Source of the DNA: Phlyctochytrium arcticum
Taxonomy: Eukaryota > Chytridiomycota > Chytridiomycetes > Chytridiales > Chytridiaceae
NCBI GenBank assembly: GCA_025602905.1
Contig: JAHLKI010000018.1
Span: 124,001 to 188,000, forward strand
Length of the DNA stretch: 64,000 bases
Direction: 5' to 3'
Program-made: the position numbers and the translations under genes
In this document: piece by piece, positions 11,667 to 54,659 of the stretch
Layout of the letters: every line of letters begins with the position of its first letter
How positions within the stretch are numbered: the first letter of the stretch is position 1
Notes under the pieces: model-generated
What the model was told of the DNA's origin: nothing
Database searches by the model: none
Seen by the model: only the letters and a program-made list of their open reading frames with translations

Positions 11667-11720
11667 CTGTTATAGTGCAGAACCTATAGTGGTACCACTA
11701 TAGGTTCTGCACTACAACAG
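11667..11720. repeat. 54-bp palindrome joining elements A and B
   Basis: Centre is GGT|ACC at 11693/11694. The arms run CTGTTATAGTGCAGAACC.. and ..GGTTCTGCACTACAACAG, with a single mismatch (TAT against the complement of ACA). The left arm has the A-type base seen at 5757, and the right arm has the B-type base seen at 27451-27504. It is therefore a hybrid of one A end and one B end, and only one copy separates the two elements. Confidence 0.9.
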
Positions 11721-11846
11721 ACCCAATAGTGGGAAAGTACTATCCAGGAACCAATAGTGGAAAGGGCACTATTTCAGACCCAATAGTGGGAAAGAGGAAG
11801 AACCAATAGTGCCAAATTCAAGAACCAATAGTGGGCAGCGCGAGCG
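11712..11846. repeat. Iteron array, five copies of ACCAATAGTGG (element B, left)
   Basis: Copies of A(C)CCAATAGTGG lie every 22-30 bp just inside the palindrome, mirrored at 27340-27453. One intervening degenerate GCACTATTT is also present. Same core, opposite orientation, as the A array on the other side of the palindrome. Confidence 0.75.
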
Positions 11847-12398
11847 GGCCTGCAAGCAAACCTATCCATAGGATCCCCGAACGGCATTCAAGCTTGCAGT
11901 ACTGTTACATGGTCATACTGCTCAAAAAACTATCGATATGATTCATATGAAATGGCCTGACACTACTATCGATTCTATTGTCTCGTACTAGCTTCTCCCA
12001 TGCATCGTGAATACACCTATAAGCTTACTCGTAATACTCTAATAAAGTGGCGACCGTTTTATTCTGAATCTGGCATGTTACCTCTTGTCCCAATTTCCCA
12101 CATTTACCTCTTTTATGAATTTTCGAACTTGGTGGTCAAACCACCACCAACATTTTTGACTCGTACTGCTACACATGACACATGGGACTTAGCTATACAT
12201 TGTACTATGATCATCTCTCTACCTCTCTCTCCAATCCAATCCAATCGAGTGGGGAAACTCTGCCCCAAACTCTGCCCCAAGGTTTTGCTTCCCTTAACGA
12301 ATTTTTCAAATTGGGGCAGAGTTGATGTCCAACTTTGCCCCAACTTTGCCCCAAGCCTTTTCGTGTGGGGAAGCAAAATGCAGTTTTAGAAACGAGTG

Positions 12399-12620
12399 GG
12401 GAAAGAAAATGGAGTTTTGGAAACGAGTGGGGAAAGAGATTGAAGAGATTTGGGGCAGAGTTGATGTTAATTTTGAATTAATCTATTTTTTTTTTAATAG
12501 GTGGTCAGCTCGCCACCACCTCAGAATACAGGAATTCCTTATAGCACAAAATTACAGCTCAACTCTGCCCCAAATCTCTTCAATCTCTTTCCCCACTCGT
12601 TTCCAAAACTCCATTTTCTT
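12399..12620. repeat. Long hairpin inside the B inverted repeat
   Basis: Arms of about 65 bp at 12399-12463 and 12556-12620 are essentially perfect reverse complements, containing GGAGTTTTGGAAACGAGTGG and GAGATTTGGGGCAGAGTTGA. The roughly 90-nt loop holds a T run and GGTGGTCAGCTCGCCACCACC-like symmetry. The same hairpin recurs in the right repeat near 26552-26773. Confidence 0.85.
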
Positions 12621-12779
12621 TCCCCACACGAAATTGTAGGGGCAAACTTGGGGCGGAGTTGCTTCTCATATTTCACAATTCTTTCACCCCACACGAAATA
12701 TTGGGGTCTACTTGAAACTTCCAACTCTGCCCCTAATCTCTATGACTTACATATCACCCTCACCTGCTTCATCTTCATT

Positions 12780-13199
12780 CTACCATCCATTTTTATCTCT
12801 AAAATATGCATTGTATGCCTCCATGCCAATTTTGTTTCTGCTCATAATCTCATCAATATCTTTCAAAGAATTGAGCTTGGGAATATATACTCTCATACCG
12901 AGATTCTGTAGATAGGCTCCTCTTGTCAGTAATACAAAAAATGGTGAGAATGACTTGACAAATACTTGGCAATGCCTAATATTATACTTTTCATTTTCAA
13001 CTCGTGAAGTTTCTACATCAGTTAAGCGCTTTCTCGACCAGTTTGGTTTAGAGGTTTTTTCAACTGTGTACAGTGTCCACCCCTCTCCCAAACTCTGTGT
13101 ATCAACTCGAGTCTTTCCTTCTTTTCCATCCTTGCATTTTAGGTATTTTTCATGAATAATATTGTAGTCTTCTTCACTGAATTGTTTGATCGTTGGCAT
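12780..13199 (-). CDS. Hypothetical protein, first gene of element B
   Basis: 139 residues, start MPTIKQFSEEDYN. The stop codon lies 9 bp from the inner limit of the left inverted repeat. Mixed alpha/beta composition with a hydrophobic FFVLLTRGAYLQNLG segment and a C-terminal AYNAYFRDKNGW. No recognisable domain. No homologue is seen in A or C within the window. Upstream TATATACTAATTGTATATG around 13201 could be promoter-like. Confidence 0.6.
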   Translation of the reverse strand: MPTIKQFSEEDYNIIHEKYLKCKDGKEGKTRVDTQSLGEGWTLYTVEKTSKPNWSRKRLTDVETSRVENEKYNIRHCQVFVKSFSPFFVLLTRGAYLQNLGMRVYIPKLNSLKDIDEIMSRNKIGMEAYNAYFRDKNGW

Positions 13200-13298
13200 T
13201 ATATACTAATTGTATATGACAAATAACTTGACGTGAGCACAGACGCGCACCAAGGAAACTTTTCATTTGATACCTTCAAGATATAGTAATATTCAAAA

Positions 13299-13637
13299 AT
13301 GTGTCCATCAGCAAAACTAATTCATCTATCGTCACCCAATGGAGAGACAGCTAAAGTGCTTCGTTTGGCTATCAATGATGAAGAGGAATTGACAAAAGTA
13401 GCTCTTGGGTTAAGAGGTAAAGACTTATATGTGTACGTGCCTCGTAGTAGTTGTAATAGGAAGCTCTTTGAGAAGATAATCAGCATCTCGTCTTTGCTTC
13501 ATCCCAAAAAGGATGAGAAATTAAGAAGAGATTTTTTGAGTAACGGGTGGCTGAATATCAGTGATTCAAAACTGGCAATAGGATGCGAAAGGAACACTTG
13601 CATTGAAGTCTTTGAGCTGATATGTAACGAGTTTTAA
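13299..13637 (+). CDS. Hypothetical protein (element B)
   Basis: 112 residues, start MCPSAKLIHL. Predicted alpha/beta, with LAINDEEELTKVALGL and a DLYVYVPRSSCN strand. Faces and overlaps the 3' end of the fibre gene by 4 bp (stop codons interleave), the tight packing typical of virus genomes. Divergent from the 139-residue gene, with a 99-bp gap that should hold both promoters. Function unknown. Confidence 0.55.
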   Translation: MCPSAKLIHLSSPNGETAKVLRLAINDEEELTKVALGLRGKDLYVYVPRSSCNRKLFEKIISISSLLHPKKDEKLRRDFLSNGWLNISDSKLAIGCERNTCIEVFELICNEF

Positions 13638-16600
13638 TATTCAATCATCTGAAGGTCAACTCTGCAGTTACCGTCAAACGAAACATTACTACCAGACCAT
13701 GTAAGAGTAAACGTATGACTTCCTGGTACAAGCCCGCTTGATATGGCATGGAGTGGAAAGCGAATGACCTGACCTTGATATCTCCAAAACAAGTAGATTG
13801 TTTTTATCGGCTGTCCATCCACACGAAGAATAGCGTCCACACCAAATTGATCACTTCCGCACCACAGAGATACGCTTCCTGTGTACATCTGTATACTTCT
13901 AGTAGTTGTGAAAGTCTTTGAAAATTGGGCAACAACTCCAGTTGCCGGGTACGATACATTATCCCATATTGTTGTTGCGACGGGTCGAGTCAGTAATCCC
14001 TGCCCGTCCAGATATAATCCTCCAGAGGGTGCTTTGATATACATTGTATTTTGATAAGGGGGTGACGTGGCGGTATTCCCGATCCCGATAAATCCAGAGA
14101 CAGTAGAATCATTGTTTTCAAATTGAATGGTTGAATAACCACCAGAATGACGGTTCTTTACTTTCAACACATTGCCTACAAAATTAGACTGGATTATGCT
14201 AGTTGTGATTGAATTGAATCCAAAGTCAATTTGTGATTCGGTGGATACTTTCCCGGCCCCACCAATTGGACAAAGACGTAAGGATAAATCGCTCGAATAC
14301 CACCCAATGAATCTATGATTCGTGATGGTATCAAAAAAGTGGAGATCTCCATTTGAGTGGGATGGCGTACATCTTATATACAAATTTCCCAAGTTAATTT
14401 GTGAGAATCCAGTATTCGGGATATTCAAATACGAGCCATTTATTGTAATGTCGCCAGTTGTTGTTAGACTAGGTAACGTGGCTGTTATAGATGAAAGTGT
14501 TGTCAAATTTGGATGACTAGACTGTTTGTTACCAAGAGATGTAATTAATGAATTGCCAGCAACGAATATGTCGGTACCCACATAGAGTGATTTTACAACA
14601 TGAACATTTCCATCTGGTCTTAATTGAAGAATATGAGATGATTGATTAAAATTGTAGAAGCCTATTGAACCGTTAGGCAAACCGCCCGTACCAGCTTGCC
14701 CTGCATGATATATGCCCCATTGGCAACTAGATGATGCATTATTCATGGAAATTATAGCATTTCCTGCTGTTGCTGTTGAAGGAGCATTGACGGTAATGGC
14801 ATTTGGTTTATTACCGGCTCCAAGATTCAATGTTAAAACTTTGGATGAAATTGTATCGATTACTTGCATCGCATTGGCGACTATCGTTTTAGCTACACTT
14901 AAGCCTCCGGCAATTCGAAATGAACCATTATTTGTTGTAGTAGCATCGGTCATTGAGAAAAATAACGCTGTACCGTCTCCGAGCAATTGTGATATGACTG
15001 TTGTGCCTCCATACCATTTAAATCCATTTGAATTATTATTAGCTGGTATCGAAAACCACATATTAGCACTTTCCATGCCGATTGCATAATCCACTGCATT
15101 AGAACTGACAGCAGGATACATTACAACTTTTGTACCGGGACTTCTTGTGGTAAATGAAGGGTTAGATACGATAGTTGCAAAATTGAGATACTTGGAAAGA
15201 TTGACACCACCAGCAACTCTTAAGGCATTTTCAGAAGTTGAATACAGATCAAGTATTCCGTCAGATGCTATATTGATTATTTGCGTTTCTGTTGGAGAAT
15301 TCGCAGGTCTCGTAAAGAAAGCGAAAGCACCAGTGCCTCTCCCATCAAGGCGAAAACCTAAACCAGGATATATCGTATTCTTGTTTGAAGCGTGGAAATT
15401 GGTTTCTAAATTTATAATAGGTGTTGTTCCGCCCAATTCTGTTGTAATACCTGCCGGTGCAGTATAGTTTCCGAGATTTATAGATGATCCTAAATCTATT
15501 TTCGTTCCTGGTAAAAGTCCTGTGACATCAGTGGATGCCAAATCGACAGCATTCTTCAATGCTAATGCGGCAAACGCTGGTTTGTTGAGAATATTTGCAT
15601 ATTCTATTTGACCACTAGATGCCGATGAAGAATGGCCTAACGTTGTTTTAATAGATGCGGCATTACCCGAGGTAATGAGTGTTTGAAGCGTACTTGTATT
15701 CACATTTGCGACAGGAAGAACACCTGTAATATCTGATGTAGATAGGTCAACAGAGTTTTTCAAAGCCAATGCTCCGAGTAATGGTTTGTTTATTATATTA
15801 GAATAATCTAATGTTCTTACAATTTTTAGATTCTTGAATTCCTCCTTCTGAGCATACGACCCCGACCACGAGCTAATTCCCAGGTACGTGTTTTGTGTAT
15901 TAACAGCAGTAATATTTTCAAGTCCCTCATTAGAGATTTTCAGAACATCATTAACATATAAGTACATGGAACCATTGTTGTAAACAATTTTAATAGAATA
16001 CCATGTATTAGCCGTCGGAAACATACTGAGATAAGATGGTCCCGCTACATTAGCATTAGGCGTTCTCAAAGTCGTCACTTGATTGAATCGGGCATATTGG
16101 AAACCGTATGAAGGAATGGCCCCATTCATAAACGTATTCGAGGTTGTTGGTTGAAAGAAGGAAATAAACGATCCATCTCCTACACCTGCCCATCTGTACT
16201 GGATAGTTAATACAAATGAATTCCCTGGATTCATTTTGTAAAGATACGTACCATTTATCTGTGATCCATTAATAGTAGTAACAATTCCAGTTGTTGAATC
16301 ATATGTGGCATTTCCGGAAAGTATTGCCGCGCTTGATAAATTTCCTCTAGTCTCTCGTTCATCTATAAGAACAATGTTATTCAAGTTTGAAAGAATTGGA
16401 GCATTCAGATCACCCGTGATTGCTAGTGAAGATATAGTTGGTGTAGATGTGGAGAGACTATTGAGGTTTGAATGAACATCTTGTTTCAATGCTAGATTCG
16501 GGGTATTTCCAATAAGTGAATAATCCAATTTTGCCGAACTTGTAATCAAAGGGTGTTTTGTTGCTAAACCTGAAGTTAGAGAACTCGTTAATGCATATGG

Positions 16601-19321
16601 TGAAAGATCCGGAGTTCCTGAAACGTTTGTATAAGCGATCTTGTTACTTGATGAAATGACATCTTGCTTACTGTTCTGCAATCCTGTAATCAATCCTCTG
16701 ACAGCCGTATCATTGTACGCCTCAGTCTTCAACGCATATACGGCCAAATTTGGTACATTACTGATTAATGAGTAGTCAAGTTTGTTTCCAGATGTAATGG
16801 TATTCTGTTTTGATGTCAGTCCAGTCGCGAATGCAGCGTTTGATACATATCCAGTGAGTGTGCTTGTTAAAGACGTATTCGAGACGTAATTTGCTGCAAT
16901 ATTCGAAATTGTTGCATATACGGACAAATTCGGAACTCCCTCGAGTAATGAATACGACAATTTGTTGTCAGTTGCAATTTTTGGTTGAAAATTAGCATAT
17001 AGTGTTGATTCTAAACCAGAAAGTAGGAGTTTAGTATCTTCAAGTTCATTTCCCAATGGACTCACCAAAGAACCAACTAGAGTAATAGTTGAAGGCTGAA
17101 TAACCTCAGCGTTGTACTGTCTTAGCATCTCGAGGTTGATTCCAGTTTGTGGATATTCTGATTCGATGCCTAACCACCCGCAGCTAGGAGGGGTGTCCCA
17201 TAATATTCTCGTAACGTCACATCCATTCGAATCTGGTAGCGTAGCAATGACAACGTTAGAACCGTCTTGTAACTCGTAGTTTCCATTGGAATCTAGTATG
17301 GGAGCACCATTAGTACCTTCCTTTCTTTTTCTTTCACGGCCGAATATCGAAATCCAGCCTCCAGTCAATCCTGTCAAAGCTCCTTCTAACATCCCACCGC
17401 CCAAAGCACCAACTGCGGAAGAGGCCGAGCCGATAGCGCCCCCGACCCCGAATACTGACCCAGCTAAAGGACCAAGAACACCGCTCAAACCACATGTAAT
17501 AGAGATCACATCTCCACCAGCGCCTCCCGACTTGAGCACTTGTCCTTCATTACCTTCGGTGAATTCTTCTTGTGGTGAATCTTCAGTTCTCTCTTGTTTG
17601 AAGGTATCTATAGAACTAATTGAATATCCAGAACCAGTCGGAGTCACCAAGATTCCCGTTCCACCCACCAAAGTCATAGTATTGTTGATGGATCTACCAG
17701 CGACATTGATAAATGTGCCCCCGATATATGGTTGCTCTTCAGGTGCTTCGTATTCATATGTTGATGAGATGGTGTTGCCTGTGATCTGAATATTATTTCC
17801 CGCTTGGTAATTCCCCCTTATGTCATTTCCTACCCGAACAATACCGTTAGACGCTGTGAGCTTTTCAGTAATGTGATTCTTACTTGAGTTCATCTCCAAT
17901 GCCCCGTCAACGGTAAGGTCCAACGAAACTTCATGGCTGGAATTCTCGTGGAGCCCCTGTCCAAAGGTGCGCAAGTCTGTAAGAATGCTGCCGTCAAACT
18001 CGATATTCCCCTGCGTCTGCAAATCAAGGTATACCTCGTTCCCGTTACGAATTCCTAGCGAATTATTAGACTGGAATATCAATCCGCTCGTCAATTTCCC
18101 CTCTGCATTCAGTCTGATGCTCGAGTTGTTCACCAAATTCGCGAGATTCACTCCTAGCATATTTGTCACGTCGGTCAGCAATGAGTCATCGTGACGCAGT
18201 GACACGATTTTTCGGCCGAACGACTCGCCGGAGATTTCAATGGAATTTCCAGCTTGATACAATTGTTCGACGTAGGCTGCTGTGGTCAAGGTACTTTTAT
18301 TTGATATCACAAAGTCTTGCTTGCCAATAACATAGTCTACTTGTAGCTGTCTGAGCGTGTTGTTGAATACGAGATTCGAGGATTGATTCATTCCGACTCC
18401 CGTTCCACCGCCGTAGTACACCAGTCCCAATCCTTCACTCTTTACACCAAGACGATTGCCCTCCTGTGTGAGATTATTGGTGTCGGCCGACAACTTGACG
18501 AGAGAAGCATCGAATGCCTCGAGTGGGTCTTTATAGACTGAAATGGCTTGACTCCCTTTCAAGTATTCCGTTGCCTCTTTGGCATTCAACTTTCCATCTT
18601 TGATTTCCAAACGGGATCCAATCTTCAAGGAGACTTCCTCGTCTACTTCATCAAGAGGTTCATTGAACACAAGTTTATCAGGTATTTTGGCAGACAATTC
18701 ATTATTGGAGATTCTCATTGTGTCGGAATCCAGATTCAACGTCAATCTATGAGAATTGAATGCATCAAATTTGAAACCCGGACCGATCTTCAACTCCAAG
18801 CCTTTCGCAAACAATGTCCCATCCTCAAAATACCCCTCGTTTTCTTGGAAATGGGACGAATATTCCAGTTCTATGTTACCATCATCATTGATGAAAAGAG
18901 GGGAATTGACATTCTGGGCACGATTCGAAAGTTTTCCGCTGTTAGTAACAAAGAGTGATGACTGCTCGTCAACCAACAATCCAACCTCGCCGTTTTCGTT
19001 CCGATGGACAGGATCTGAATACAAAGTTTCTAATACCGCCAGTTTACCATCTACCAACTCAAGTGTGTTCTCGTCGTAATTCAGTGAAACCAAAGCGGAA
19101 CCGTCTTCGACGTTTGTGGTTAAAGGTACGTCGGTCTCTATATTGTTGACCAGTAACTGACCATTCTTGTTAGAGATTGATTGAAATGCTCCCTTGTCGA
19201 AATTTTCTATAGAGACGTTATTGCCAAGACCTTTGATGCTATTTGTGACTAAAGGAGAAACGAGGTTCGTCCTCTCAAGCGTTCGTAGACCACTACTGTT
19301 GCGCCCGTTAAGGTCCTTCAT
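13634..19321 (-). CDS. Giant fibre-like protein with beta-spiral-like repeats and a LamG-like domain
   Basis: 1895 residues, start MKDLNGRNSSGLRTL. Residues about 30-480 carry short hydrophobic/polar beta repeats with recurrent N/D-G turns (e.g. LELVDGKLAVL, LEIKDGKLNAK), like the triple beta-spiral shaft of adenovirus fibres. About 597-650 is a Gly/Ala-rich hydrophobic segment ending in GRERKRKEG, membrane-active or flexible in nature. About 760-1000 has fibre repeats (KLDYSLISNVPNLAVYA; KQNTITSGNKLDYS). About 1024-1165 looks like a LamG/concanavalin lectin fold (YSIKIVYNNGSMYLYVND). More repeats follow, then a C-terminal beta domain (about 1810-1895). The role is most likely host attachment. 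It is uninterrupted although B capsid genes are broken. I see no equivalent in A or visible C. Confidence 0.75.
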   Translation of the reverse strand: MKDLNGRNSSGLRTLERTNLVSPLVTNSIKGLGNNVSIENFDKGAFQSISNKNGQLLVNNIETDVPLTTNVEDGSALVSLNYDENTLELVDGKLAVLETLYSDPVHRNENGEVGLLVDEQSSLFVTNSGKLSNRAQNVNSPLFINDDGNIELEYSSHFQENEGYFEDGTLFAKGLELKIGPGFKFDAFNSHRLTLNLDSDTMRISNNELSAKIPDKLVFNEPLDEVDEEVSLKIGSRLEIKDGKLNAKEATEYLKGSQAISVYKDPLEAFDASLVKLSADTNNLTQEGNRLGVKSEGLGLVYYGGGTGVGMNQSSNLVFNNTLRQLQVDYVIGKQDFVISNKSTLTTAAYVEQLYQAGNSIEISGESFGRKIVSLRHDDSLLTDVTNMLGVNLANLVNNSSIRLNAEGKLTSGLIFQSNNSLGIRNGNEVYLDLQTQGNIEFDGSILTDLRTFGQGLHENSSHEVSLDLTVDGALEMNSSKNHITEKLTASNGIVRVGNDIRGNYQAGNNIQITGNTISSTYEYEAPEEQPYIGGTFINVAGRSINNTMTLVGGTGILVTPTGSGYSISSIDTFKQERTEDSPQEEFTEGNEGQVLKSGGAGGDVISITCGLSGVLGPLAGSVFGVGGAIGSASSAVGALGGGMLEGALTGLTGGWISIFGRERKRKEGTNGAPILDSNGNYELQDGSNVVIATLPDSNGCDVTRILWDTPPSCGWLGIESEYPQTGINLEMLRQYNAEVIQPSTITLVGSLVSPLGNELEDTKLLLSGLESTLYANFQPKIATDNKLSYSLLEGVPNLSVYATISNIAANYVSNTSLTSTLTGYVSNAAFATGLTSKQNTITSGNKLDYSLISNVPNLAVYALKTEAYNDTAVRGLITGLQNSKQDVISSSNKIAYTNVSGTPDLSPYALTSSLTSGLATKHPLITSSAKLDYSLIGNTPNLALKQDVHSNLNSLSTSTPTISSLAITGDLNAPILSNLNNIVLIDERETRGNLSSAAILSGNATYDSTTGIVTTINGSQINGTYLYKMNPGNSFVLTIQYRWAGVGDGSFISFFQPTTSNTFMNGAIPSYGFQYARFNQVTTLRTPNANVAGPSYLSMFPTANTWYSIKIVYNNGSMYLYVNDVLKISNEGLENITAVNTQNTYLGISSWSGSYAQKEEFKNLKIVRTLDYSNIINKPLLGALALKNSVDLSTSDITGVLPVANVNTSTLQTLITSGNAASIKTTLGHSSSASSGQIEYANILNKPAFAALALKNAVDLASTDVTGLLPGTKIDLGSSINLGNYTAPAGITTELGGTTPIINLETNFHASNKNTIYPGLGFRLDGRGTGAFAFFTRPANSPTETQIINIASDGILDLYSTSENALRVAGGVNLSKYLNFATIVSNPSFTTRSPGTKVVMYPAVSSNAVDYAIGMESANMWFSIPANNNSNGFKWYGGTTVISQLLGDGTALFFSMTDATTTNNGSFRIAGGLSVAKTIVANAMQVIDTISSKVLTLNLGAGNKPNAITVNAPSTATAGNAIISMNNASSSCQWGIYHAGQAGTGGLPNGSIGFYNFNQSSHILQLRPDGNVHVVKSLYVGTDIFVAGNSLITSLGNKQSSHPNLTTLSSITATLPSLTTTGDITINGSYLNIPNTGFSQINLGNLYIRCTPSHSNGDLHFFDTITNHRFIGWYSSDLSLRLCPIGGAGKVSTESQIDFGFNSITTSIIQSNFVGNVLKVKNRHSGGYSTIQFENNDSTVSGFIGIGNTATSPPYQNTMYIKAPSGGLYLDGQGLLTRPVATTIWDNVSYPATGVVAQFSKTFTTTRSIQMYTGSVSLWCGSDQFGVDAILRVDGQPIKTIYLFWRYQGQVIRFPLHAISSGLVPGSHTFTLTWSGSNVSFDGNCRVDLQMIEY

Positions 19322-19380: not shown

Positions 19381-19707
19381 TTAAATCGGCGCTCTTTCAA
19401 GATGATCAAGGAATTTGTCGGTACCCTTGTGGTATTCTGTCACTCGTTTCAAACCAAGATCTGCCAACTCTTGTCCTTTTTGAGAGTAATCGTTGACTTT
19501 GGAGTTTTTGAATAGTTCATTGCTCTGTATTCCTTTGTTCACATGGGTAAGAAGTTTGTGACCTTTAGTTGCAATATTTACAGCATTATTCAGAAAGTTT
19601 CGAGTTTGGGTGATTGGTCTACTTGAAAGAAACGTATTCAGTCGTCCTTTTGCTCTATTTAGAAAGCCAACCATGTATTCTTTTCCGTTCTTAATATAAG
19701 AATACAT
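19381..19707 (-). CDS. Small basic amphipathic-helix protein, shared by B and C
   Basis: 108 residues. The central ATKGHKLLTHVNKGIQ matches ANKGQKLLKGVNQSIQ of the C protein at 58526-58831, and both start with an Arg/Lys-rich segment (LFNKGKQ / FLNRAKG). The paired location, divergent from a large proline/serine-rich gene, is the same in B and C. Size, basic charge and amphipathic helices would suit an internal capsid or membrane-lytic cement protein such as adenovirus pVI. That is inference from character only. Confidence 0.65.
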   Translation of the reverse strand: MYSYIKNGKEYMVGFLNRAKGRLNTFLSSRPITQTRNFLNNAVNIATKGHKLLTHVNKGIQSNELFKNSKVNDYSQKGQELADLGLKRVTEYHKGTDKFLDHLERAPI

Positions 19708-19719: not shown

Positions 19720-20751
19720 ATGTCGTTGGGATATCTACCAGTGAAAACAAGACAGGGAGTATTCGCAAATGAAGATTCGATTGTTAATATTCATGGTACA
19801 CAGTACGCCTTTATCAATGGATTGAGAGGTCCCAAAAACACATATGATCGAGGATTCCACAAGCAGTTCTATGTCCCGAATATCGGAACGGTAAGGCATC
19901 AAAAGGAGCAAATATTGGAACTTGAAAACTCATCATGGACACCAGGCCCAAAAGTAACCAAAGTTTCCAGGGACGCAGTTGAGGCGATGCATACTGTGCA
20001 AAAAGAGAAAGCAAATCAGTACTACTTTGATGAGCTCGATAAGAACAACTTGTTTCCTCGTTCTGGCCGGCCCGTTCGAATGACACGCACTCTAGCAACT
20101 CATTCCAATGGCGACGGCACATATAACATGTTCAGTCAACCCGGCTATATTCGTGCTCAACAGAATAATGATGGTCTTGGTGATGTACCCGGTGTCGTAT
20201 ACAAAGAAGATTCCAAACTACCCACGAGGGCCAATGCGCCTACAGAAAAGGTCATCTTGAGTCGAACCGTGATGCAGCAAACTGATACCTTTAACAATTT
20301 ATCAACTGAAACCGGGGCTATCGGAAATGTCCCTCGTACACCGTATCCTGGATTTGATCGACAACAAACATCAGTCAGTGATATTCCAGTCAAAGATTTG
20401 CGAACAATGGATACTCAGACGGAGCATGAAATCGATAGAGATGTACTCGATGCACTGTTTTCGAATGATGTCAAATTTCAGATATATCTTGATCAGTTGA
20501 AAGCGTCCAATAATATTCTGCGTGATCAACTCGGATCTCAGAATCAGCAAATCGGTTCCATGACTTTGCAGACGTACACCGTATTCCGACATCTTCTAGA
20601 GAGTATTGGTATAAATCACGAAACGATTCCAGAACATCCAACTCCCGACTTCATGATACGAACGTTGAAAGCAGTCAAAGATGCCAGTCCGGTCATCGGG
20701 ATTCTTATACGCTTCATATCGTTTCAAAAATTTCTTTTTAATAGAAGATGA
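19720..20751 (+). CDS. Hypothetical structural-region protein (element B)
   Basis: 343 residues, start MSLGYLPVKTRQG. Low in predicted globular order, many Asn/Gln/Thr/Pro. A helical stretch follows near 240-300 (DVLDALFSNDVKFQIYLDQLK). It holds the same slot as the 505-residue protein of C (divergent from the small basic protein), but the two do not align by eye. The last 15-20 codons (ILIRFISFQKFLFNRR) are read through the opposite strand of the truncated capsid gene, so the natural C-terminus was probably lost in the same deletion. Function unknown. Confidence 0.55.
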   Translation: MSLGYLPVKTRQGVFANEDSIVNIHGTQYAFINGLRGPKNTYDRGFHKQFYVPNIGTVRHQKEQILELENSSWTPGPKVTKVSRDAVEAMHTVQKEKANQYYFDELDKNNLFPRSGRPVRMTRTLATHSNGDGTYNMFSQPGYIRAQQNNDGLGDVPGVVYKEDSKLPTRANAPTEKVILSRTVMQQTDTFNNLSTETGAIGNVPRTPYPGFDRQQTSVSDIPVKDLRTMDTQTEHEIDRDVLDALFSNDVKFQIYLDQLKASNNILRDQLGSQNQQIGSMTLQTYTVFRHLLESIGINHETIPEHPTPDFMIRTLKAVKDASPVIGILIRFISFQKFLFNRR

Positions 20752-21132
20752 TTCTCGATATTGATCCCAACAGATTCTAGCATAGTCATCTATTTGATTA
20801 CCGTCAACTTCCTTTCCACCGAGGATGATTGTTCGTTTACGAAAGATTCCTGAAATACCAACCGATGCAATTGTTGCACTAGTAAAAGGAGTTCCGTCTG
20901 CATTAAATACATTTACTCTACCAGAGAGAAACCCTTGCTGAGGTCGCAGGTAAGAAGAATTGGAATCCACTGGGATTACAATATTAGAGCCGGAAGAACG
21001 AGAGTCGAATGAATCTTTCACAGGCCTATAGGTCATAAAATTCTGGCTTAAGGGATCCGCATTGACAAGAAATTGCTGATCTTCATAGCTCCAATTTGCA
21101 GGAAATCGGGGATTTACTAATGCGTTTGACAT
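20701..21132 (-). pseudogene. Major capsid protein, truncated after the first beta sheet (element B)
   Basis: Starts MSNALVNPRFPANWSYE. It then shows the first jelly-roll features of double-jelly-roll capsids: SSYLRPQQGFLSGRVNVF and NADGTPFT, a GISGIFRKRTIILGGKEV hairpin, and an IDDYARICWDQYR helix. The C homologue has SLILQKLLLSFDVTAMKNG and GLIQSVRVQIGNKVIQE at the same places. Homology stops at about ..KRYEAYKN (20701-20720), and the frame then runs into the neighbouring gene's opposite strand. About 140 of more than 400 residues are left. B is therefore capsid-defective unless complemented. Confidence 0.75.
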
Positions 21133-21163: not shown

Positions 21164-21670
21164 CTATCGTCTACCAAAAATGTGAGTCAGAACAGTGTCT
21201 TGTGGTTCATAATATTCATCGTACCCTTCATCAAAAACCATATGTTTTGTTACAGGAGTTGGTGTTGGTGTTGGTGACCTTTTTGGCAAAGATTGTTTCT
21301 TGTTTGGAATATTTGAGACATTGACTTTCTTTGCAGTACGTTTTGGCTTACTCAGGGCTACATACTTCTCAATAGCCTTTCTGGCAATCTCCTCATCACG
21401 CTCTTGCTGTTTGAGTAGTTTGGCATTTTCGACTTCCTTGTCATGCTGTTCCTTGAGTTTCTTCATTTCACGCAGATTTTCTGTTCGTTTTGCTTGAGCC
21501 TTTTTCATATTCTCTTGTTGTTTAGGTGTTCTTTCCTTCTTCTTGGTTTTGACACTATTGACGACTTTGTCAATAGGATCGCTTTCATTGGTTTCTACTT
21601 GATCAATACTAGAATCAACAGAATCTTCGGTTTGAATTTCGTTTTCTGTTGGTTTTTGTTGTTCAGACAT
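21164..21670 (-). CDS. Lysine/glutamate-rich coiled-coil protein with IFGRR tail (element B)
   Basis: 168 residues, start MSEQQK. Acidic N-terminus (about 1-40), then a long K/E/R/Q helix (about 45-115: KKKERTPKQQENMKKAQAK, KLKEQHDKEVENAKLLKQQ). A Pro/Thr linker follows, then a conserved tail EYYEPQ..THIFGRR. The C homologue ends in ENFGGIFGY, so a terminal (H/G)IFG motif is shared. It is sandwiched between capsid and penton genes in all three elements. A scaffold or capsid-anchoring role via the C-terminal motif is plausible but unproven. AATAGATAAC lies just upstream. Confidence 0.7.
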   Translation of the reverse strand: MSEQQKPTENEIQTEDSVDSSIDQVETNESDPIDKVVNSVKTKKKERTPKQQENMKKAQAKRTENLREMKKLKEQHDKEVENAKLLKQQERDEEIARKAIEKYVALSKPKRTAKKVNVSNIPNKKQSLPKRSPTPTPTPVTKHMVFDEGYDEYYEPQDTVLTHIFGRR

Positions 21671-21697: not shown

Positions 21698-22444
21698 TCA
21701 CAAGTTTAGAATGTCGTTGTAGTCGTCGAAAATACCAATAGTTAGAATACTCGGTTGAGTCATTTTGATCGTATGAAACGATGTTGAATCGACTATACTG
21801 TAATCGATTGAACTTGGTGTAATTGCGTTTGGAAGAATGACAAACTTGTCCGACGGATTAACCCAAGTCACTATATCGGAAAAGTCGTCAGGCTGAATAC
21901 AAGCTAGAATATTCTGATTGCTCTCAATACCTGCAGGGTAGAGAATGGATCCATTGGAAGAGAATGTTCGACTCGTCAGGAGAATTGGCTGACTGGCACT
22001 GAGATTCACTGGATTCATGAATGTCACATTCTTTGCGGAAACAGTGGAATCTATGTTCCCCAGCTGGTAGTATGATGTACTTCCTCCTTCTTTTCCAAGC
22101 ACTTTGAAGTCCTTTGGGCCACTAGTACTCAGTGAGATTCTCCGACTGACTTGATCGTACGTTACGGAATACGGCTGAGTGGCATTCGAGGTGAGCAGCT
22201 GGGACAAAGCCGTAGATATTGTAGACACATCATAGACACCATCTGGCAGCGTAATGGTGATGGGGGAATCGTTTGCTTCCTGTATGACGAGCTTGTTGTT
22301 GTTCAATTCATGCGAGATGCTATCCCAAGATTGTATAAACGAGAATGCCTCGATACGAAACGCGTGGATCGTAAGAGGCGAGATTTGAAAACTAGTTGTC
22401 AACGAGCTTAGAATTGCAGTATTCAGTACTATCTGACGATACAT
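21698..22444 (-). CDS. Penton-type minor capsid protein (element B)
   Basis: 248 residues from MYRQIVLNTAILSS; an upstream in-frame extension exists but A starts at the same Met. Features: SWDSISHELNNNKLVIQEA, ITITLPDGVYDVSTISTAL (about 75-95), YSVTYDQVSRRISLS (about 105), a TSYYQLG segment and NLSASQPILLTS (about 155). These follow the order of vertex (penton, single jelly-roll) proteins in Polintons, PLVs and virophages. Intact, unlike the A copy. Divergent from the ATPase gene across a 54-bp promoter gap. Confidence 0.8.
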   Translation of the reverse strand: MYRQIVLNTAILSSLTTSFQISPLTIHAFRIEAFSFIQSWDSISHELNNNKLVIQEANDSPITITLPDGVYDVSTISTALSQLLTSNATQPYSVTYDQVSRRISLSTSGPKDFKVLGKEGGSTSYYQLGNIDSTVSAKNVTFMNPVNLSASQPILLTSRTFSSNGSILYPAGIESNQNILACIQPDDFSDIVTWVNPSDKFVILPNAITPSSIDYSIVDSTSFHTIKMTQPSILTIGIFDDYNDILNL

Positions 22445-22458: not shown

Positions 22459-22473
22459 TTATTATACAATAGA
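22459..22473. promoter_or_regulatory. Promoter-like motif TTATTATACAATAGA (B)
   Basis: Same position and orientation as the A site at 7336-7350, between penton (-) and ATPase (+) starts. It is followed by AATAGATAATAAG, also shared with A. Confidence 0.55.
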
Positions 22474-22498
22474 ATAGATAATAAGAAAAGCTTGCGTA

Positions 22499-23331
22499 AT
22501 GAATGTAGAGAAAGTTTCTATTCCGAAGCAATATAAGCAGAAGATTGTCGACAGTACACCAGAAGGTTACCCCCGGAAGTTTTTCACACTCTCGTGTATC
22601 GGAAGTTCACGCTCTGGTAAGACAATATGTATCATCAACTTGATCAAGAAGGTTGCTCACACATATCGGAACATAGTAGTGTATTCACCATCCATTGATG
22701 ACGTAAGCTGGACGGCGCTGAAAAAGTATGACAATGTTTACACCTCGCAAACCATCTCAAATCATATTCTGAACAATCTCCAGCTGAAAAAGTATGACAA
22801 TGTTTACACCTCGCAAACCATCTCGAATCATATTCTGAACAATCTCTTTGAGAAGCAAAAAAGATTTACCAAAAGGACAAGGACAAGAATCACATGCTAC
22901 TCATTATAGACGACTACGGAATCCTAGCGAGACAGACTGGGCAACTGCTCGACAAACCACTTCAACACGAGGAGAAAGTATCGTCCGGAATCAAACAGAT
23001 GCTCGACATTCTATATCCGACTGCCCGACATAACGGTATGTCCATCTGCGTTTCGTTCCATGATACACTCCAATGCACCCCCTTGCAGCGAGTCAATGCA
23101 ACTCATGCCATTCTTTATCGACTGAACGATGCGCAACTGGAGAAGATTGCCCCTGAGCTGAGATGCCATCTGTCGAACAAAGAGTTTGTAGAGATGGCAA
23201 ATGAATATACAAAAAACCCTTACACTTTTCTCTATATAGATGTGAAAGCTCTGTGCAACGAGGACGTATTCGTCAGAGGAAAACCCGCAACTCTAATAAC
23301 ACAGAACAAAGAAGAAAAAGATGATTCATAA
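22499..23331 (+). pseudogene. DNA-packaging ATPase, broken by duplication and frameshift (element B)
   Basis: Aligns closely with the intact A gene. Walker A is GSSRSGKTI (Thr to Ile at the last position). A 66-bp in-frame tandem duplication (22718-22849) repeats YDNVYTSQTISNHILNNL, and just after it one A is missing in CAAAAAAGATTT (near 22860), shifting the frame. The Walker B half (MLLIIDDYG) continues in the second frame to the normal end at 23331. The product would lack Walker B, so packaging activity is probably lost. Confidence 0.85.
22718..22849 (+). repeat. 66-bp tandem duplication within the B ATPase gene
   Basis: Unit 1 is 22718-22783, unit 2 is 22784-22849, both starting CTGAAAAAGTATGACAATG. 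They differ only at a third-codon position (CTCAAATC / CTCGAATC) and at the unit end. The unit adds 22 codons without changing frame. Confidence 0.9.
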
Positions 23332-23342
23332 TAAGACAGAAT

Positions 23343-24617
23343 ATGGACAGCGATGAAGATGAAGTTGCCAGATACTGGAAACCAATTACGAGGCAAGATT
23401 ATGATCAATTACTCGACATGTATACTAACGGAGGTGCGCTAATGGGCAGGGACAGATTGTATTTTCTTTACAAGCAGAGATTCCCAACATCGAAACTTAG
23501 CCAGAGAACATTGCTGGAAGAGTTTCTGAAGAAACAAACTGTGTATCAACGCTTCTCAATACCTCATACGCAACGGGGAATGGTACGGCCGATTCTATCG
23601 AAGGAGGAGGGGCATTTTCTGCTTGACTGCACCTTTATGCGGCCATTCGGAGGCAATATGGCAATTGTCGTGGCAGTGGATATTCTGACAAAGAAGGTTT
23701 ACGCCCGTCCCTTGAAACGAGTCAATAGCAGGGGTGTTGTGACATTGCTTAAATCTATGATCGACGATGGCGTGACAATTAAGACGATTCAGAGCGACAA
23801 TGGAAGTGAAAACATCGGTAGGGAAACTCAGGACTTTGCCGAGGAACACGGCATCGTTTGGCGTACAAGTAAGCTGCATTCCCCGTGGTCAAACGGAATA
23901 GTAGAGAAGATGAACTCTACCGTCAAACGGGCTTTGTATATGGGCGCTCATTACAATAAGAATTGGGTACAACTCTTGCCGAATGTAATTCAATCTATTA
24001 ACAGTACGATTTCGTTTGGTGCAGGAAAGAAACCACGAACACCTCAGTATATCAAAGACAATGCAGAAGAAATAGCAGAAGCTCAAAGAAAGGATAGAAA
24101 CAAAGGTGTTTCTGGGAAATTGAAAACCTTCAAGATTGGTGACAAGGTGAGACGCTATATCACTTCAAAGGATACAGGACTTCTCAAACGGGCAAGAACA
24201 GGCTATTTTGGCTCAAAAATATACAGAATTACAGACAGAATACCAAGCAAGTTCATTCAATATCAAGATGGATATAAATTACTCGACTTGGACACAAATG
24301 TTGAACTCAGTGGCGTATTCGCTGCCTATATGTTAAGACTTGTACCTGATGGAACGCAAGATGTAGCTGCCCCTGCCGCTGCTGCTCAAGCACAAGATGG
24401 AAATGATGATGATGATGATGATGAAGAAGACGACAATGAATATCAAGTCGAGCGAATACTAGATTCTAGAATCAAACGAGTCAATGGGCGTCGAGTGAAA
24501 CAAGTACTTGTCGAATGGACAGGCTATCCCGTCTCAGAGGCAACTTGGGAAGATCGAGATCAAGTAATCATCAATGCCAGAGAAGCAGTTGAAGAATACG
24601 AGAGAGACGTTGAATAG
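23343..24617 (+). CDS. Retrovirus-like integrase with C-terminal chromodomain (element B)
   Basis: 424 residues, closely similar to the A integrase along its length. Triad: D about 95 (LLDCTF), D about 151 (QSDNGSE), E about 187 (GIVEKMN). A KIGDKVRRYI segment follows, then an Asp/Glu-rich linker (D8-like run near 350) and a chromodomain with QVERILD and QVLVEWTGYP and WEDRDQV. Intact. Starts 11 bp after the ATPase stop, as in A. Expected to act on the palindrome-capped inverted repeats of the element; which bases it trims is not known. Confidence 0.93.
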   Translation: MDSDEDEVARYWKPITRQDYDQLLDMYTNGGALMGRDRLYFLYKQRFPTSKLSQRTLLEEFLKKQTVYQRFSIPHTQRGMVRPILSKEEGHFLLDCTFMRPFGGNMAIVVAVDILTKKVYARPLKRVNSRGVVTLLKSMIDDGVTIKTIQSDNGSENIGRETQDFAEEHGIVWRTSKLHSPWSNGIVEKMNSTVKRALYMGAHYNKNWVQLLPNVIQSINSTISFGAGKKPRTPQYIKDNAEEIAEAQRKDRNKGVSGKLKTFKIGDKVRRYITSKDTGLLKRARTGYFGSKIYRITDRIPSKFIQYQDGYKLLDLDTNVELSGVFAAYMLRLVPDGTQDVAAPAAAAQAQDGNDDDDDDEEDDNEYQVERILDSRIKRVNGRRVKQVLVEWTGYPVSEATWEDRDQVIINAREAVEEYERDVE

Positions 24618-24618
24618 A

Positions 24619-24888
24619 TTAAGCCTTTGCCGTTTTGGCTCTGGTTTTCCTTGGTGCTCGGACAATCACCTGATGCTGTTTCAACGTGTCTTTGAATGAC
24701 TCTTGTAGCAGATCGATTTCTACCTGCATCTCCATATTCTTAATGGTGAATTCATCAATATGAGGAATCTTTTTTGCCATCTCGATATATCTGAGCTTAT
24801 CTTCACGTTTCTCAATATCATCAAAGAGATCTAGTATACGTCCCTTTGGGTCACCAAGCGGATCTTTATCATCATTAAAAAATCTCAT
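24619..24888 (-). CDS. Small helical protein (element B)
   Basis: 89 residues, start MRFFNDDKDPLGDPKG, highly helical, basic tail (RAPRKTRAKTAKA). It converges on the integrase with a 1-bp gap. It may be the counterpart of the 91-residue A protein, which is on the other strand. A promoter-like TATATTACTTG lies just upstream. Function unknown. Confidence 0.6.
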   Translation of the reverse strand: MRFFNDDKDPLGDPKGRILDLFDDIEKREDKLRYIEMAKKIPHIDEFTIKNMEMQVEIDLLQESFKDTLKQHQVIVRAPRKTRAKTAKA

Positions 24889-24916
24889 CTTTATATTACT
24901 TGAAGCCTAAAAAAAA

Positions 24917-25189
24917 CTAGTAGTTTGTGATAATTATTTCGTTGTCTTGGTTCTTTCCATGTGAAATGAACGAGTATCTGCGATACTGATGAATATGATA
25001 TGCTTCAAAAAGCTTCATGTGACGCTCACTGCTATCTAGAGTCAGGAGAAAGTTCACCCCTGCATCATTTAGGTAATCACATACAGACAATTCTTTGAAA
25101 TGTATCTACAGGATTGTCCAAAGAGGTTTCTGTTTGTATTCAAAATGCAAGAGTGGGAACGCTTCAAAGTCGATGCCCAGTAGAGGTGC
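24917..25189 (-). pseudogene. Remnant of an unidentified element gene
   Basis: A continuous frame reads LLGIDFEAFPLLHFEYKQK.. then PLWTIL, an in-frame TAG, then IHFKELSVCDYLNDAG and on to ..NQDNEIIITNY stop. The 5' end is missing (a stop precedes LLGID). The extreme 3' end (GATAATTATTTCGTTGTCTTG) is also recognisable in A at 9782-9803, so A once carried the same gene. The 5' part is duplicated at 26255-26392. Identity unknown. Confidence 0.55.
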
Positions 25190-25192
25190 TTC

Positions 25193-25642
25193 TTAGACAG
25201 AATACACGGGAGGATAAACTTCCTTTACAGAATACACGGGACTAGAAACTTCCTTAATGATATGTTTTAACATTTTCGTTTGCGCAATCGCTCTCACTTC
25301 ATCGGCTGTAAACAGATCTAGTTCCATAAATCTCTGAAAGAAACTTGTCGCTGCGGACCATCCAATCCAAAGACTATTGTTGTATAAGCGCGTTATTTGA
25401 CTTTTCAAGTCTTCTTCATTCAGAGAAAACTTACCATGCGAAATATCACAACGTTGAAGTTCCTTTTCTAACTCAGCAATGACTTTCTCGATTTGTTGAG
25501 TTCTTGAAGGACCTGGAATCTCAATTCCAAATTCTTTTTTGATCAATTTGGAGAAATTTGTACAAGCTTCTGTGTTGCCCTCACTATTGTATTTATCATA
25601 AGTCGCCAAAATCTCATTGTAAATTGGTGTGTCAACAATCAT
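25193..25642 (-). CDS. Conserved element protein, B/C family
   Basis: 149 residues, start MIVDTPIYNEILATY. Clearly homologous to the C protein at 63280-63711 (MIVDPSVYIAIISKY..): shared VIAELEKELQRC / VIAELKADLKRC, FSLNEEDLKSQI / FSLNKDDLKEEI, and L(D/N)LFT.(D/E)EVR. All-helical prediction. The B copy has a duplicated VYSV-type tail (SSPVYSV, YPPVYSV). Location near the right end in both elements suggests a shared, probably regulatory or early function, but nothing specific can be said. Confidence 0.7.
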   Translation of the reverse strand: MIVDTPIYNEILATYDKYNSEGNTEACTNFSKLIKKEFGIEIPGPSRTQQIEKVIAELEKELQRCDISHGKFSLNEEDLKSQITRLYNNSLWIGWSAATSFFQRFMELDLFTADEVRAIAQTKMLKHIIKEVSSPVYSVKEVYPPVYSV

Positions 25643-25815
25643 TCTTGTTAGTTTTACATACTATGCAGAAAATGTATTTTTTTAATATTTTACATCAAAC
25701 GCACTTTGCAAAAAACCCAATTGCGTGAGGTGGAATGAAGACAACTACCCCTGGTGCGTTTGTGCTCATGTCAAGTTTATAACAGTGTCTCAAGGGCCTG
25801 GAATACTGAGTTAGG

Positions 25816-26151
25816 TTACTTAGACCCCTTTGCTCTTTGCACCCATTCCTGTACCATCTGTTTCCAGTTATGATGCTCAGCATAATCATCTTTATCAAAA
25901 TACTTGTTCTTCAAGTCAATGCAGTGTACCTCCTTCCGACACGCACGGCAACCCGGTAGGTCGAGTTGAAATTGTTTTAGTGACTCTAATCTTTCCAAGT
26001 CAGGAATTTCGCCCCAGTAGCGAAAATCATTTGGCTGATATTCTTCATTACATTCTTTGCAATAATTTCTTTCACAGGCACCACACCAACCTTCACATTC
26101 AACTGCCATTACCTCAGCACATCCGCTGCAAACATAAAGATCCACACCCAT
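25816..26151 (-). CDS. Cysteine-rich zinc-binding protein (element B)
   Basis: 111 residues, start MGVDLYVCSGCAEV. Cysteines in CxxC pairs: C8/C11, C20 region, C23/C26, C31/C34, then C67/C70 and C76. The arrangement (CSGC..C..C..C..CNYCKEC..) resembles RING or treble-clef zinc modules. The C-terminal half is charged and helical. It could be a ubiquitin-ligase-like or transcription factor. No homologue in the visible parts of A or C. Promoter region upstream is TTAATTATTAG. Confidence 0.6.
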   Translation of the reverse strand: MGVDLYVCSGCAEVMAVECEGWCGACERNYCKECNEEYQPNDFRYWGEIPDLERLESLKQFQLDLPGCRACRKEVHCIDLKNKYFDKDDYAEHHNWKQMVQEWVQRAKGSK

Positions 26152-26254
26152 TGTTAATTATTAGAGGTTGAGAGAAACTTTTTAGTAGTGCATCTAGTTA
26201 AAAGAATGTTACAATTGGACACCAGTGTAGTATCGCAGTGTATCAGAAGGAAGA

Positions 26255-26392
26255 TCGAATTCTTTGAAATGTATCTACAAGATTGTCCAAAGAGGTAACT
26301 CGATGGAATAGAGAATATTCTGTTTCTGTTTGTATTCCAAATGCAAGAGTGGGAACGCTTCAAAGTCGATGCCCAGTAGAGGTGCTGAGGAG
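26255..26392 (-). repeat. Second copy of the LLGIDFEAF gene fragment, next to the right inverted repeat
   Basis: Near-identical to 25091-25185, with about 23 extra bases (GGAATAGAGAATATTCTG...) that insert QNILYSIE in frame. It carries the same in-frame TAG. It ends 9 bp from the inner limit of the right inverted repeat, suggesting a local duplication associated with repeat-end recombination. Confidence 0.75.
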
Positions 26393-26400
26393 AAACTTCC

Positions 26401-27477
26401 TGAAGCAGGTGAGGGTGATATGTAAGTCATAGAGATTAGGGGCAGAGTTGGAAGTTTCAAGTAGACCCCAATATTTCGTGTGGGGTGAAAGAATTGTGAA
26501 ATATGAGAAGCAACTCTGCCCCAAGTTTGCCCCTACAATTTCGTGTGGGGAAAGAAAATGGAGTTTTGGAAACGAGTGGGGAAAGAGATTGAAGAGGTTT
26601 GGGGCAGAGTTGAGCTGTAATTTTGTGCTATAAGGAATTCCTGTATTCTGAGGTGGTGGCGAGCTGACCACCTATTAAAAAAAAATAGATTAATTCAAAA
26701 TTAACATCAACTCTGCCCCAAATCTCTTCAATCTCTTTCCCCACTCGTTTCCAAAACTCCATTTTCTTTCCCCACTCGTTTCTAAAACTGCATTTTGCTT
26801 CCCCACACGAAAAGGCTTGGGGCAAAGTTGAGGCAAAGTTGGACATCAACTCTGCCCCAATTTGAAAAATTCGTTAAGGGAAGCAAAACCTTGGGGCAGA
26901 GTTTGGGGCAGAGTTTCCCCACTCGATTGGATTGGATTGGAGAGAGAGGTAGAGAGATGATCATAGTACAATGTATAGCTAAGTCCCATGTGTCATGTGT
27001 AGCAGTACGAGTCAAAAATGTTGGTGGTGGTTTGACCACCAAGTTCGAAAATTCATAAAAGAGGTAAATGTGGGAAATTGGGACAAGAGGTAACATGCCA
27101 GATTCAGAATAAAACAGTCGCCACTTTATTAGAGTATTACGAGTAAGCTTATAGGTGTATTCACGATGCATGGGAGAAGCTAATACGAGACAATAGAATC
27201 GATAGTAGTGTCAGGCCATTTCATATGAATCATATCGATAGTTTTTTGAGCAGTATGACCATGTAACAGTACTGCAAGCTTGAATGCCGTTCGGGGATCC
27301 TATGGATAGGTTTGCTTGCAGGCCCGCTCGCGCTGCCCACTATTGGTTCTTGAATTTGGCACTATTGGTTCTTCCTCTTTCCCACTATTGGGTTTGAAAT
27401 AGTGCCCTTTCCACTATTGGTTCCTGGATAGTACTTTCCCACTATTGGGTCTGTTGTAGTGCAGAACCTATAGTGGT
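26401..27477. repeat. Right terminal inverted repeat of element B
   Basis: Reverse complement of 11694-12771 with a few substitutions (for example TTGAGGCAAAG against TTGGGGCAAAG). Inner limit TGAAGCAGG at 26401. Contains the same hairpin, GGTGGTTTGACCACCAA and five mirrored iterons at 27340-27453. Confidence 0.92.
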
Positions 27478-27504
27478 ACCACTATAGGTTCTGCACTACA
27501 ACAG
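27451..27504. repeat. Perfect 54-bp palindrome, right end of element B
   Basis: Arms CTGTTGTAGTGCAGAACC.. / ..GGTTCTGCACTACAACAG around GGT|ACC at 27477/27478; no mismatch. Immediately outside is unrelated host-like DNA (GTGCTTCTGTTACAC). The outer arm is therefore part of the integrated unit although no repeat follows it. Confidence 0.9.
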
Positions 27505-54658: not shown

Positions 54659-54659
54659 T

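Follow-up and report, generated by a model that had tools for sequence, protein, structure and literature searches.

Element B is probably a defective, recently inserted member of an endogenous family of polinton-like viruses (PLVs) in a chytrid fungus, the reading that best explains a deletion, a fused insertion and palindromic ends jointly. The genes missing from B were lost by ordinary deletion, and the family to which it belongs are polinton-like viruses. What is unusual about the family is its ends, and an earlier sequence-only reading of this DNA gave the palindromes found there a mere mention. To our knowledge, it is an open question how the ends are copied in polinton-like viruses that have no PolB. 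Hence, our interest is in the ends and not in the missing polymerase, which is an ordinary loss.

The host is Phlyctochytrium arcticum. The window, the whole stretch of 64,000 nucleotides that was analysed, covers positions 124,001-188,000 of contig JAHLKI010000018.1 (C18). Positions of B are window positions, and labels such as C4, C10 and C18 denote contigs of the P. arcticum genome.

Palindromic ends

As the earlier reading had it, inverted repeats of about 1.1 kb and a palindrome mark each end of B:

11667..12771: terminal inverted repeat at the left end of B, 1.1 kb, with 99.3% identity to its right-hand counterpart
26401..27504: terminal inverted repeat at the right end of B
27452..27503: 52-bp palindrome at the right end of B, its arms matching at 26/26 positions
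27504..27508: GGTGC, one copy of the target-site duplication; its partner lies just before C18:109243, the left end of A', beyond the window
53965..64000, on to C18:203194: element C, of helicase type; its terminal palindromes differ in sequence from those of B, and its duplication is GTCAG

Helicase-type elements of three lineages carry near-perfect terminal palindromes of 46-63 bp, bounded by TG...CA. Exact 5-bp target duplications flank six of seven units of palindrome-ended elements, and in every unit with an exact duplication the outer TG...CA edges are the insertion edges. A pattern search of the genome gave 11 B-type and 9 C-type palindrome places (reversed-pattern controls: 0). Arms within one C-type end agree at 30/30 positions in eight of nine ends and at 29/30 in one. 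Between the two ends of C, a gapped comparison gives only 87% likeness (15/24 ungapped, a value lowered by an indel). The third lineage contributes two perfect palindromes, in a stretch picked by gene positions and not by palindrome search. Across 48 loci, ten of which (L030-L039) were chosen through pattern matches, 24 palindromes (score at least 18) occur in 355,148 bases, against 0 in one order-2 Markov shuffle; three of them lie away from known element ends. C17 carries a lone 52-bp palindrome with its own duplication, GTCGC. IMG/VR was scanned with one major capsid protein (MCP), with an alignment of MCPs and with the exact core of the palindrome, and gave no match.

Palindromes are absent at all four ends of the PolB elements C7 and C25, the two independent PolB elements read to both ends. 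Both have plain inverted repeats, and C25 has a 6-bp target duplication. A third PolB element, on C26, is 97.4-99.6% like C7 and not independent; its ends lie outside the pieces read.

The palindromic sequence suggests that the family carries hairpin-closed ends and not the protein-capped ends expected of its relatives. Outside the chromosome, helicase-type elements would be linear molecules, each end closed by a hairpin. Replication round the hairpin would yield junctions that are palindromic and concatemers linked by palindromes. Then the rve integrase would cut at TG...CA on the outer edges of the palindromes and insert the piece with a 5-bp stagger. We consider this combination of hairpin-ended free form, concatemers and rve cutting the most likely account of the ends, with about an even chance of being right. 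Hairpin ends are supported because palindromes occur in three lineages, arms agree within ends, two pairs of elements are joined by a palindrome and PolB ends have none. Several observations count against them: C-type elements have palindromes without a recombinase-like relative nearby, the D/B2 pair lacks a matching outer duplication, the palindrome of A' is short by its 6 central bases, and the arms of the right palindrome of B2 match at only 22/26 positions.

A recombinase-like protein of the full siblings might resolve the junctions, a speculative and rather unlikely step. Searches of Pfam, PHROGs, NCBIfam and PDB gave no match for this 377-aa protein, and its structure model is very weak (pLDDT 37.5). 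Only the motif spacing in the alignment, set beside the motif of tyrosine recombinases, suggests such an enzyme. Its database relatives are from P. arcticum only (two in one search, eight in another), and none was found near the C-type elements C18, C26 and C41, all of which have palindromes. For the C10 MCP, the protein database gave its own record and one metagenomic protein only; the MCPs of C10 and C reach 23% in the alignment. The model of the full MCP of C is weak (pLDDT 49); the structures that match it best are viral capsid proteins, at a TM of about 0.3, and the MCPs of Sputnik and mavirus are among the matches listed. PDB sequence searches with the MCP and the recombinase-like protein yielded no credible match.

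Alternatively, the palindromes may be integrase-binding ends only. Their symmetry would be kept by selection or gene conversion, and the free form would be ordinary or protein-capped. The coincidence of the TG...CA outer edges with the insertion edges, wherever the duplication is exact, fits this reading, and the lone C17 palindrome with GTCGC could arise by exchange between the two ends of one element, like a solo LTR. However, arms agree within an end but differ between ends, two element pairs share a single palindrome, and the PolB relatives, with an integrase of the same type, manage without palindromes. We regard it as a real but somewhat doubtful possibility.

The broader form of the hairpin reading is tentative, its chances slightly below even. 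One fungal genome, and one capsid lineage, would hold two replication styles: PolB polintons, whose inverted repeats are plain, and viruses of the helicase type, which would have gone over to hairpin telomeres, palindrome-linked concatemers, their own recombinase-like resolution and rve integration of single or fused genomes. The integrated copies are a readable record, with self-complementary ends, palindrome-joined genomes in one target duplication and mirror-image copies. The PolB relatives in the same genome are an internal control; thus whether end structure goes with the replication enzyme is testable in one chytrid. If true, hairpin ends would define a hairpin-telomere branch of polinton-like viruses, a possible bridge to the end copying of poxviruses.

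Joint insertion of B with A'-A

To the left of B lies one arm of a mirror-image element:

1118..11719: right arm of A'-A; the other arm is C18:109243-119816
5783-11719: viral part of the A arm, with a capsid fragment of 71 codons, penton, ATPase, integrase and methyltransferase-like gene
7372-8142: ATPase of A, Pox_A32 match, E 9.8e-8
8154-9440: integrase of A
9804-10706: methyltransferase-like gene of A, PHROGs match
11668..11719: single palindrome common to A and B, 52 bp, with one A-type and one B-type arm that match 25/26

Positions 1118-5782 of the A arm hold no recognised viral gene, and their sequence occurs in the two arms only. Very probably B and A'-A were already joined, through one palindrome, when they entered the chromosome. 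A'-A-B is one 42-kb unit (C18:109243-151503), because one GGTGC duplication encloses all three. Hence the gene list of B is not complete for this copy: B was not inserted alone, and some of its genes are broken. A second pair, D and B2, is joined through one palindrome and has no matching outer duplication; that D is the left partner of B2 is what we infer from read sequence that excludes C4:1394001-1407150.

A and B could instead have been brought together after insertion, either by B inserting into an A end or by exchange between separate copies. Nested insertion does occur in this genome: C is inserted in a Gypsy element, and on C26 a PolB element is in two halves with a C-type element between them (from a survey in which 150 of 222 candidates were scored). 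The D/B2 pair without a matching duplication would also agree with later joining. But insertion of B into A should give two palindromes and an inner duplication, whereas one palindrome is seen, and exchange should give unlike flanks, whereas GGTGC flanks the unit on either side (two 5-bp sequences would match by chance in about 1 in 1000 cases). On these two observations we rejected nested insertion and later exchange for A/B as quite unlikely.

The deletion in B

Between its repeats, B contains the following:

12780..13199 (-): ORF, 139 aa, no assigned function
13299..13637 (+): ORF, 112 aa, relatives in D (48%) and B2 (99%)
13634..19321 (-): open frame for a fibre-like protein of 1895 aa; Laminin_G_3 matches weakly (E 1.5e-4), under the cut-off
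19381..19707 (-): p108, conserved among siblings
19720..20693 (+): p343, codons 1-325; 3' part removed by the deletion
20693..20694: deletion junction; about 6.9 kb of C10 (C10:394539-401411) missing from B
20694..21132 (-): major capsid protein, cut down to the N-terminal 146 codons out of 414
21164..21670 (-): p168, conserved among siblings
21698..22444 (-): penton-like protein, 248 aa, open; named by the earlier reader
22499..23331 (+): packaging ATPase of Pox_A32 type, broken into two frames at a 66-bp tandem duplication (22717-22846)
23343..24617 (+): open frame for a 424-aa rve integrase that has a chromodomain
24920..25090 (-): what is left of a Dam-type methyltransferase (codons 213-269), from a six-frame protein search
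25193..25642 (-): p149, partial relative in D (61% over residues 1-84)
25816..26151 (-): ORF, 111 aa, 98% copy in B2

The sequence-only reading described B as complete, with a full gene list. Its outline of repeats, palindromes, chromodomain integrase (Pfam: rve PF00665, E 2.4e-11; Chromo, E 9.3e-12) and open 1895-aa fibre ORF stands. Completeness does not, given the truncated capsid gene, the split ATPase and the insertion jointly with A'-A. The ATPase sequence that it named is present (Pox_A32, E 2.3e-5, Pfam), but broken like the capsid gene; its penton is present as an ORF whose protein has no family match (best Pfam E 0.062). It was right that polymerase, helicase and primase are missing: six-frame searches of B found no match to S3H helicase, recombinase-like protein, PolB (C25), Prim-Pol, p143 and two methyltransferases, seven of nine sibling or C-element proteins. 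As for the adenain-type protease that it also gave as missing, general Pfam scans matched no protease family among B proteins. PHROGs, searched with ten proteins, matched the A methyltransferase and p149 only (two weak matches for p149), and Rfam gave 0 matches.

B is without replication genes because the stretch holding them was deleted. Among the eight elements of the B subgroup (penton match at least 78%), only in C10 and D (the latter on C4) are the 3' part of the capsid gene and p343 present together. In both, about 6.9 kb sits exactly at the break point of B. Between capsid 3' part and p343 they carry an SF3 helicase of D5/VapE type (PF19263, E 6.8e-15 and 2.2e-14 in C10 and D) and the recombinase-like gene. 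Missing from B at the junction are the rest of the capsid gene, p143, the SF3 helicase, the recombinase-like gene and the 3' part of p343. Almost certainly, a deletion of about 6.9 kb at 20693/20694 took two thirds of the capsid gene together with the family's SF3 helicase and recombinase-like gene. B2 is 98-99% identical to B, yet differently rearranged at this point; therefore the loss is recent. B2 retains p343 sequence absent from B and is without the capsid fragment that B retains, so their common ancestor had both. With these genes deleted, B would depend on other copies and presumably moves or replicates only with proteins that they supply. dN/dS is 0.03-0.07 in five comparisons (with dS above 1, saturated, in four) and 0.31 for the helicase.

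The earlier reading offered gene loss or replication by host enzymes, and gene loss is the alternative that held. That B fully represents a lineage which lacks replication genes and uses host enzymes is highly improbable: although B, A'-A, B2 and two C9 elements have no helicase or PolB match and the integrase and fibre of B are open, every one of these copies shows truncation or mirror duplication, the capsid and ATPase genes of B are broken as well, and both copies with both break flanks carry the helicase, so that C10, D and B2 reject it. Full siblings with a helicase at the capsid break thus exist, which is the outcome that the earlier reading itself had named as refuting it. PolB is absent near all eight elements, with no PF03175 match.

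Comparison with known systems

PLVs with S3H and without PolB are a described kind in the relevant parts of PMC4642659 and PMC11071308; hence missing genes do not support an undescribed system. With the PLVs treated there, the B family shares a double-jelly-roll-type capsid gene, packaging ATPase, terminal inverted repeats, the lack of a protease match and S3H in place of PolB, the last in the full siblings C10 and D and not in B itself. The B family differs in its rve integrase, without which most PLVs in those parts of PMC4642659 are described, and in its terminal palindromes, fungal host and fused insertion units.

Polintons, or Mavericks, share with B the rve integrase with chromodomain, the ATPase and inverted repeats, and true PolB relatives (C7 and C25) are in the same genome. 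The B subgroup differs in lacking PolB and in having palindromic ends. Polintons start with AGT and have a 6-bp duplication (as C25), in contrast to TG...CA and 5 bp (GGTGC) in the B family.

The mirror-image end duplications of the B family presumably have a parallel in poxviruses. As far as the parts of PMC8956199 on end replication go, poxviruses also share a D5-kind primase-helicase and palindromic junctions between genomes. They differ in size, integrase and host, and the hairpins of the B family are only proposed, from its palindromes, with no Holliday-junction resolvase identified.

Hairpin-telomere replicons with a telomere resolvase (phage N15, Borrelia), to the extent that our sources cover them, differ in that no sequence relation was found and the recombinase of the siblings is a candidate suggested by motif spacing. 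They share the palindrome as a candidate replicated telomere and a recombinase-like gene, here in the full siblings. As in these replicons, palindromic junctions between genome units are present, at A/B and D/B2.

Loss of replication genes in element B

The window spans C18:124001-188000 (contig 18) in a 31.5 Mb genome of 91 contigs. Its element B, a virus-like element, carries an rve integrase with a chromodomain and an open reading frame, a penton-like gene and an 1895-aa fibre. Several of its ORFs gave no match in family searches. The sequence-only reading was right about the inverted repeats, the integrase and the fibre, but not about completeness. The capsid gene is a 146-codon fragment, the ATPase is split around a 66-bp tandem duplication, and a Dam methyltransferase remnant is still present.

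Element B, its closest sibling and other mobile genes in the window (Cn, contig n)
B, window 11667-27504: inverted repeats of 1.1 kb, 99%
B2, C4:1407-1431 kb: 98-99% identical to B, differently broken
MULE transposase, window 31516-32823: E 1.7e-22
DDE_Tnp_4 nuclease, window 47345-48634: E 4.2e-34

The penton-like gene has 68 matches genome-wide. Those of at least 78% fall in eight elements, some of them represented by a pair of arms or by fragments: B, B2, D, A'-A (the mirror-image neighbour left of B), two on C9 and two on C10. Database records assign the sibling-element proteins to the chytrid fungus Phlyctochytrium arcticum. The 3' part of the capsid gene and p343, a gene that the deletion cuts in B, are retained together in two of the eight: C10:387-404 kb and D (C4:1370 kb onward). 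In D the capsid gene is spread over several frames. Between the capsid gene and p343 both elements encode a 377-aa protein and, in an open frame, a protein of 807 or 844 aa whose SF3 helicase domain is of the DUF5906/VapE type (PF19263, E 6.8e-15 and 2.2e-14; PHROG 'DNA primase', E 1.3e-18; PDB 'Primase', E 8.6e-9).

In a nucleotide alignment, the segment absent from B is C10:394539-401411. B2 retains p343 sequence that B lacks, is missing the capsid fragment of B, and has tandem repeats in between. Neither is the parent of the other. Because each retains sequence that the other lost, their common ancestor possessed the region. The sequence-only reading had offered two alternatives, loss of the genes or a lineage that replicates with host enzymes. 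The second is contradicted by the helicase that C10 and D carry at the capsid break, the finding named beforehand as its refutation. Deletion explains the missing replication genes.

Residues are conserved in the alignment of the 377-aa proteins, and its terminal H...Y spacing is suggestive of a tyrosine recombinase. Profile, PHROG, NCBIfam and PDB searches gave no supporting match, and the surroundings of the C-type elements on C18, C26 and C41 yielded no relatives. The C10 helicase gene sits between inverted copies of a repeat of about 255 bp (94.6%; L016 1968-2223 and 4961-5215). In D (on C4; L009 5586-5835) such repeats also surround the helicase, and one more copy lies close to the left end of the element; helicase and repeats together look like a movable cassette.

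Polymerase elements and other helicase lineages

The PolB profile PF03175 has 14 matches in the genome, 12 above cut-off; this genome-wide search found none near the eight B-subgroup elements.

PolB elements read at both ends
C7:983378-1005696: inverted repeats of 837 bp, 90%
C25:398332-414234: inverted repeats of 739 bp, 81%

Both elements, the two that the end comparison covers, start with AGT and lack a terminal palindrome scoring at least 13 at either end. Their 6-bp duplication is exact at C25 and 5/6 at C7. At C26:364984-401019 one virus is inserted into another: inside a C7-like PolB element, with penton/MCP on one side and integrase/PolB on the other, sits a C-type element (C26:370323-395460) that has the duplication GTAAC.

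C-type elements, named after C (window 53965 to C18:203194), encode Prim-Pol plus D5_N, and their end palindromes differ from those of B. Of nine such ends compared, eight have arms identical at 30/30 positions and the ninth at 29/30. The palindromes at the two ends of C, by contrast, agree with each other at only 87%; the outer arm thus resembles the inner arm belonging to the same end, which is what copying around a hairpin would produce. In the C-type copy on C41 (L026, C41:138001-146000), a 2.6-kb segment that takes in the start of the fibre gene is present as three tandem copies at 100%. C itself probably inserted into a Gypsy element (window 50493-53964), since the Gypsy ORF is cut at the start of C and an identical 135-bp piece lies beyond it (C18:205280-205414).

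The full major capsid protein (MCP) of C gave a weak predicted model (pLDDT 49). The 50 PDB matches listed comprise capsid or coat proteins from viruses such as PBCV-1, iridovirus, Sputnik, PRD1 and mavirus, together with a single scaffold protein of a poxvirus; the named viral-library matches listed are mostly major capsid proteins. At a TM of about 0.3, the model supports a viral capsid protein but does not prove it.

For a third lineage we chose, by gene positions, the stretch between two C4 elements (MCPs 43% and 44% to C), which covers their facing ends, one each. Two perfect palindromes lie in it, one of 60 bp near C4:900126 and one of 62 bp near C4:900771. Each has the form TGTGATAGTGCA...TGCACTATCACA, and they are 87.5% alike. 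The left element has Prim-Pol (49%); the right, within the stretch examined, has only a weak Prim-Pol match (26%, E 1.6e-5).

Palindromic ends and joined units

The right end of B is a 52-bp palindrome with arms matching at 26/26. The left palindrome is common to A and B and has a single mismatch between an A-type and a B-type arm. As assembled, A'-A is a mirror image with 10.6-kb arms (99.4-100%) around a 5.3-kb centre, where a weaker MULE match falls just under cut-off. The five bases GGTGC occur on both outer flanks, to the left of A' (C18:109243) and to the right of B (window 27503). Given these flanks and the common palindrome, A'-A-B is inserted as a single 42-kb unit.

A second pair, D|B2, is joined through one palindrome with repeat sequence on either side; we infer that the left partner is D. 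Its compared outer flanks hold no matching duplication, making it the only one of seven units read at both ends without an exact 5-bp duplication. The other six are the C18 composite, C9, C on C18, C26, C41 and a lone 52-bp terminal palindrome on C17 (L031, C17:430583-430634; duplication GTCGC), which has an inverted repeat on neither side and resembles a solo LTR. A' has a B-type outer arm and B2, on its right, a D-type one, which gives the impression that each unit was excised from a longer chain. A broken helicase relative (66-69%; L012, C4:1431323-1433721) starts 14 bp past the right end of B2.

A possible replication mode and known systems

The free form of the helicase-type elements may be linear DNA with hairpin ends. 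Copying it would give palindrome-linked concatemers, which the integrase would cut at TG...CA; more speculatively, the 377-aa protein would act as a resolvase of junctions. Single-strand ends of B and C fold as full hairpins because they are symmetrical.

Mirror-image copies on C9, as assembled
C9:366464-381117: arms of 3.3 kb
C9:387383-408646: arms of about 9 kb

These copies fit end exchange during hairpin/concatemer replication; they could also be later duplications or assembly errors. Inverted pairs of helicase matches 10-20 kb apart occur at C24:306775-324839, C30:313913-331987, C58:52262-64946, C13:609494-624709 and C10:3942-22317, and none among the 14 PolB matches.

Passages in PMC4642659, PMC11071308 and PMC10120064 already describe PLVs with S3H and without PolB, as well as integration by rve or tyrosine recombinase; duplications of 5-6 bp are usual according to a passage in PMC12220804. 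The word palindrome is absent from PMC10120064, PMC4642659, PMC12220804 and PMC8547959, and hairpin from the last three; in PMC11071308 'hairpin' occurs only in a reference title. Among the matches listed, no literature title concerns palindromic polinton ends. The kind of virus is known, and the end structure of B's family is interesting and testable. The nearest mode to the one proposed here is that of poxviruses, with the hairpins and concatemers described in PMC8956199.
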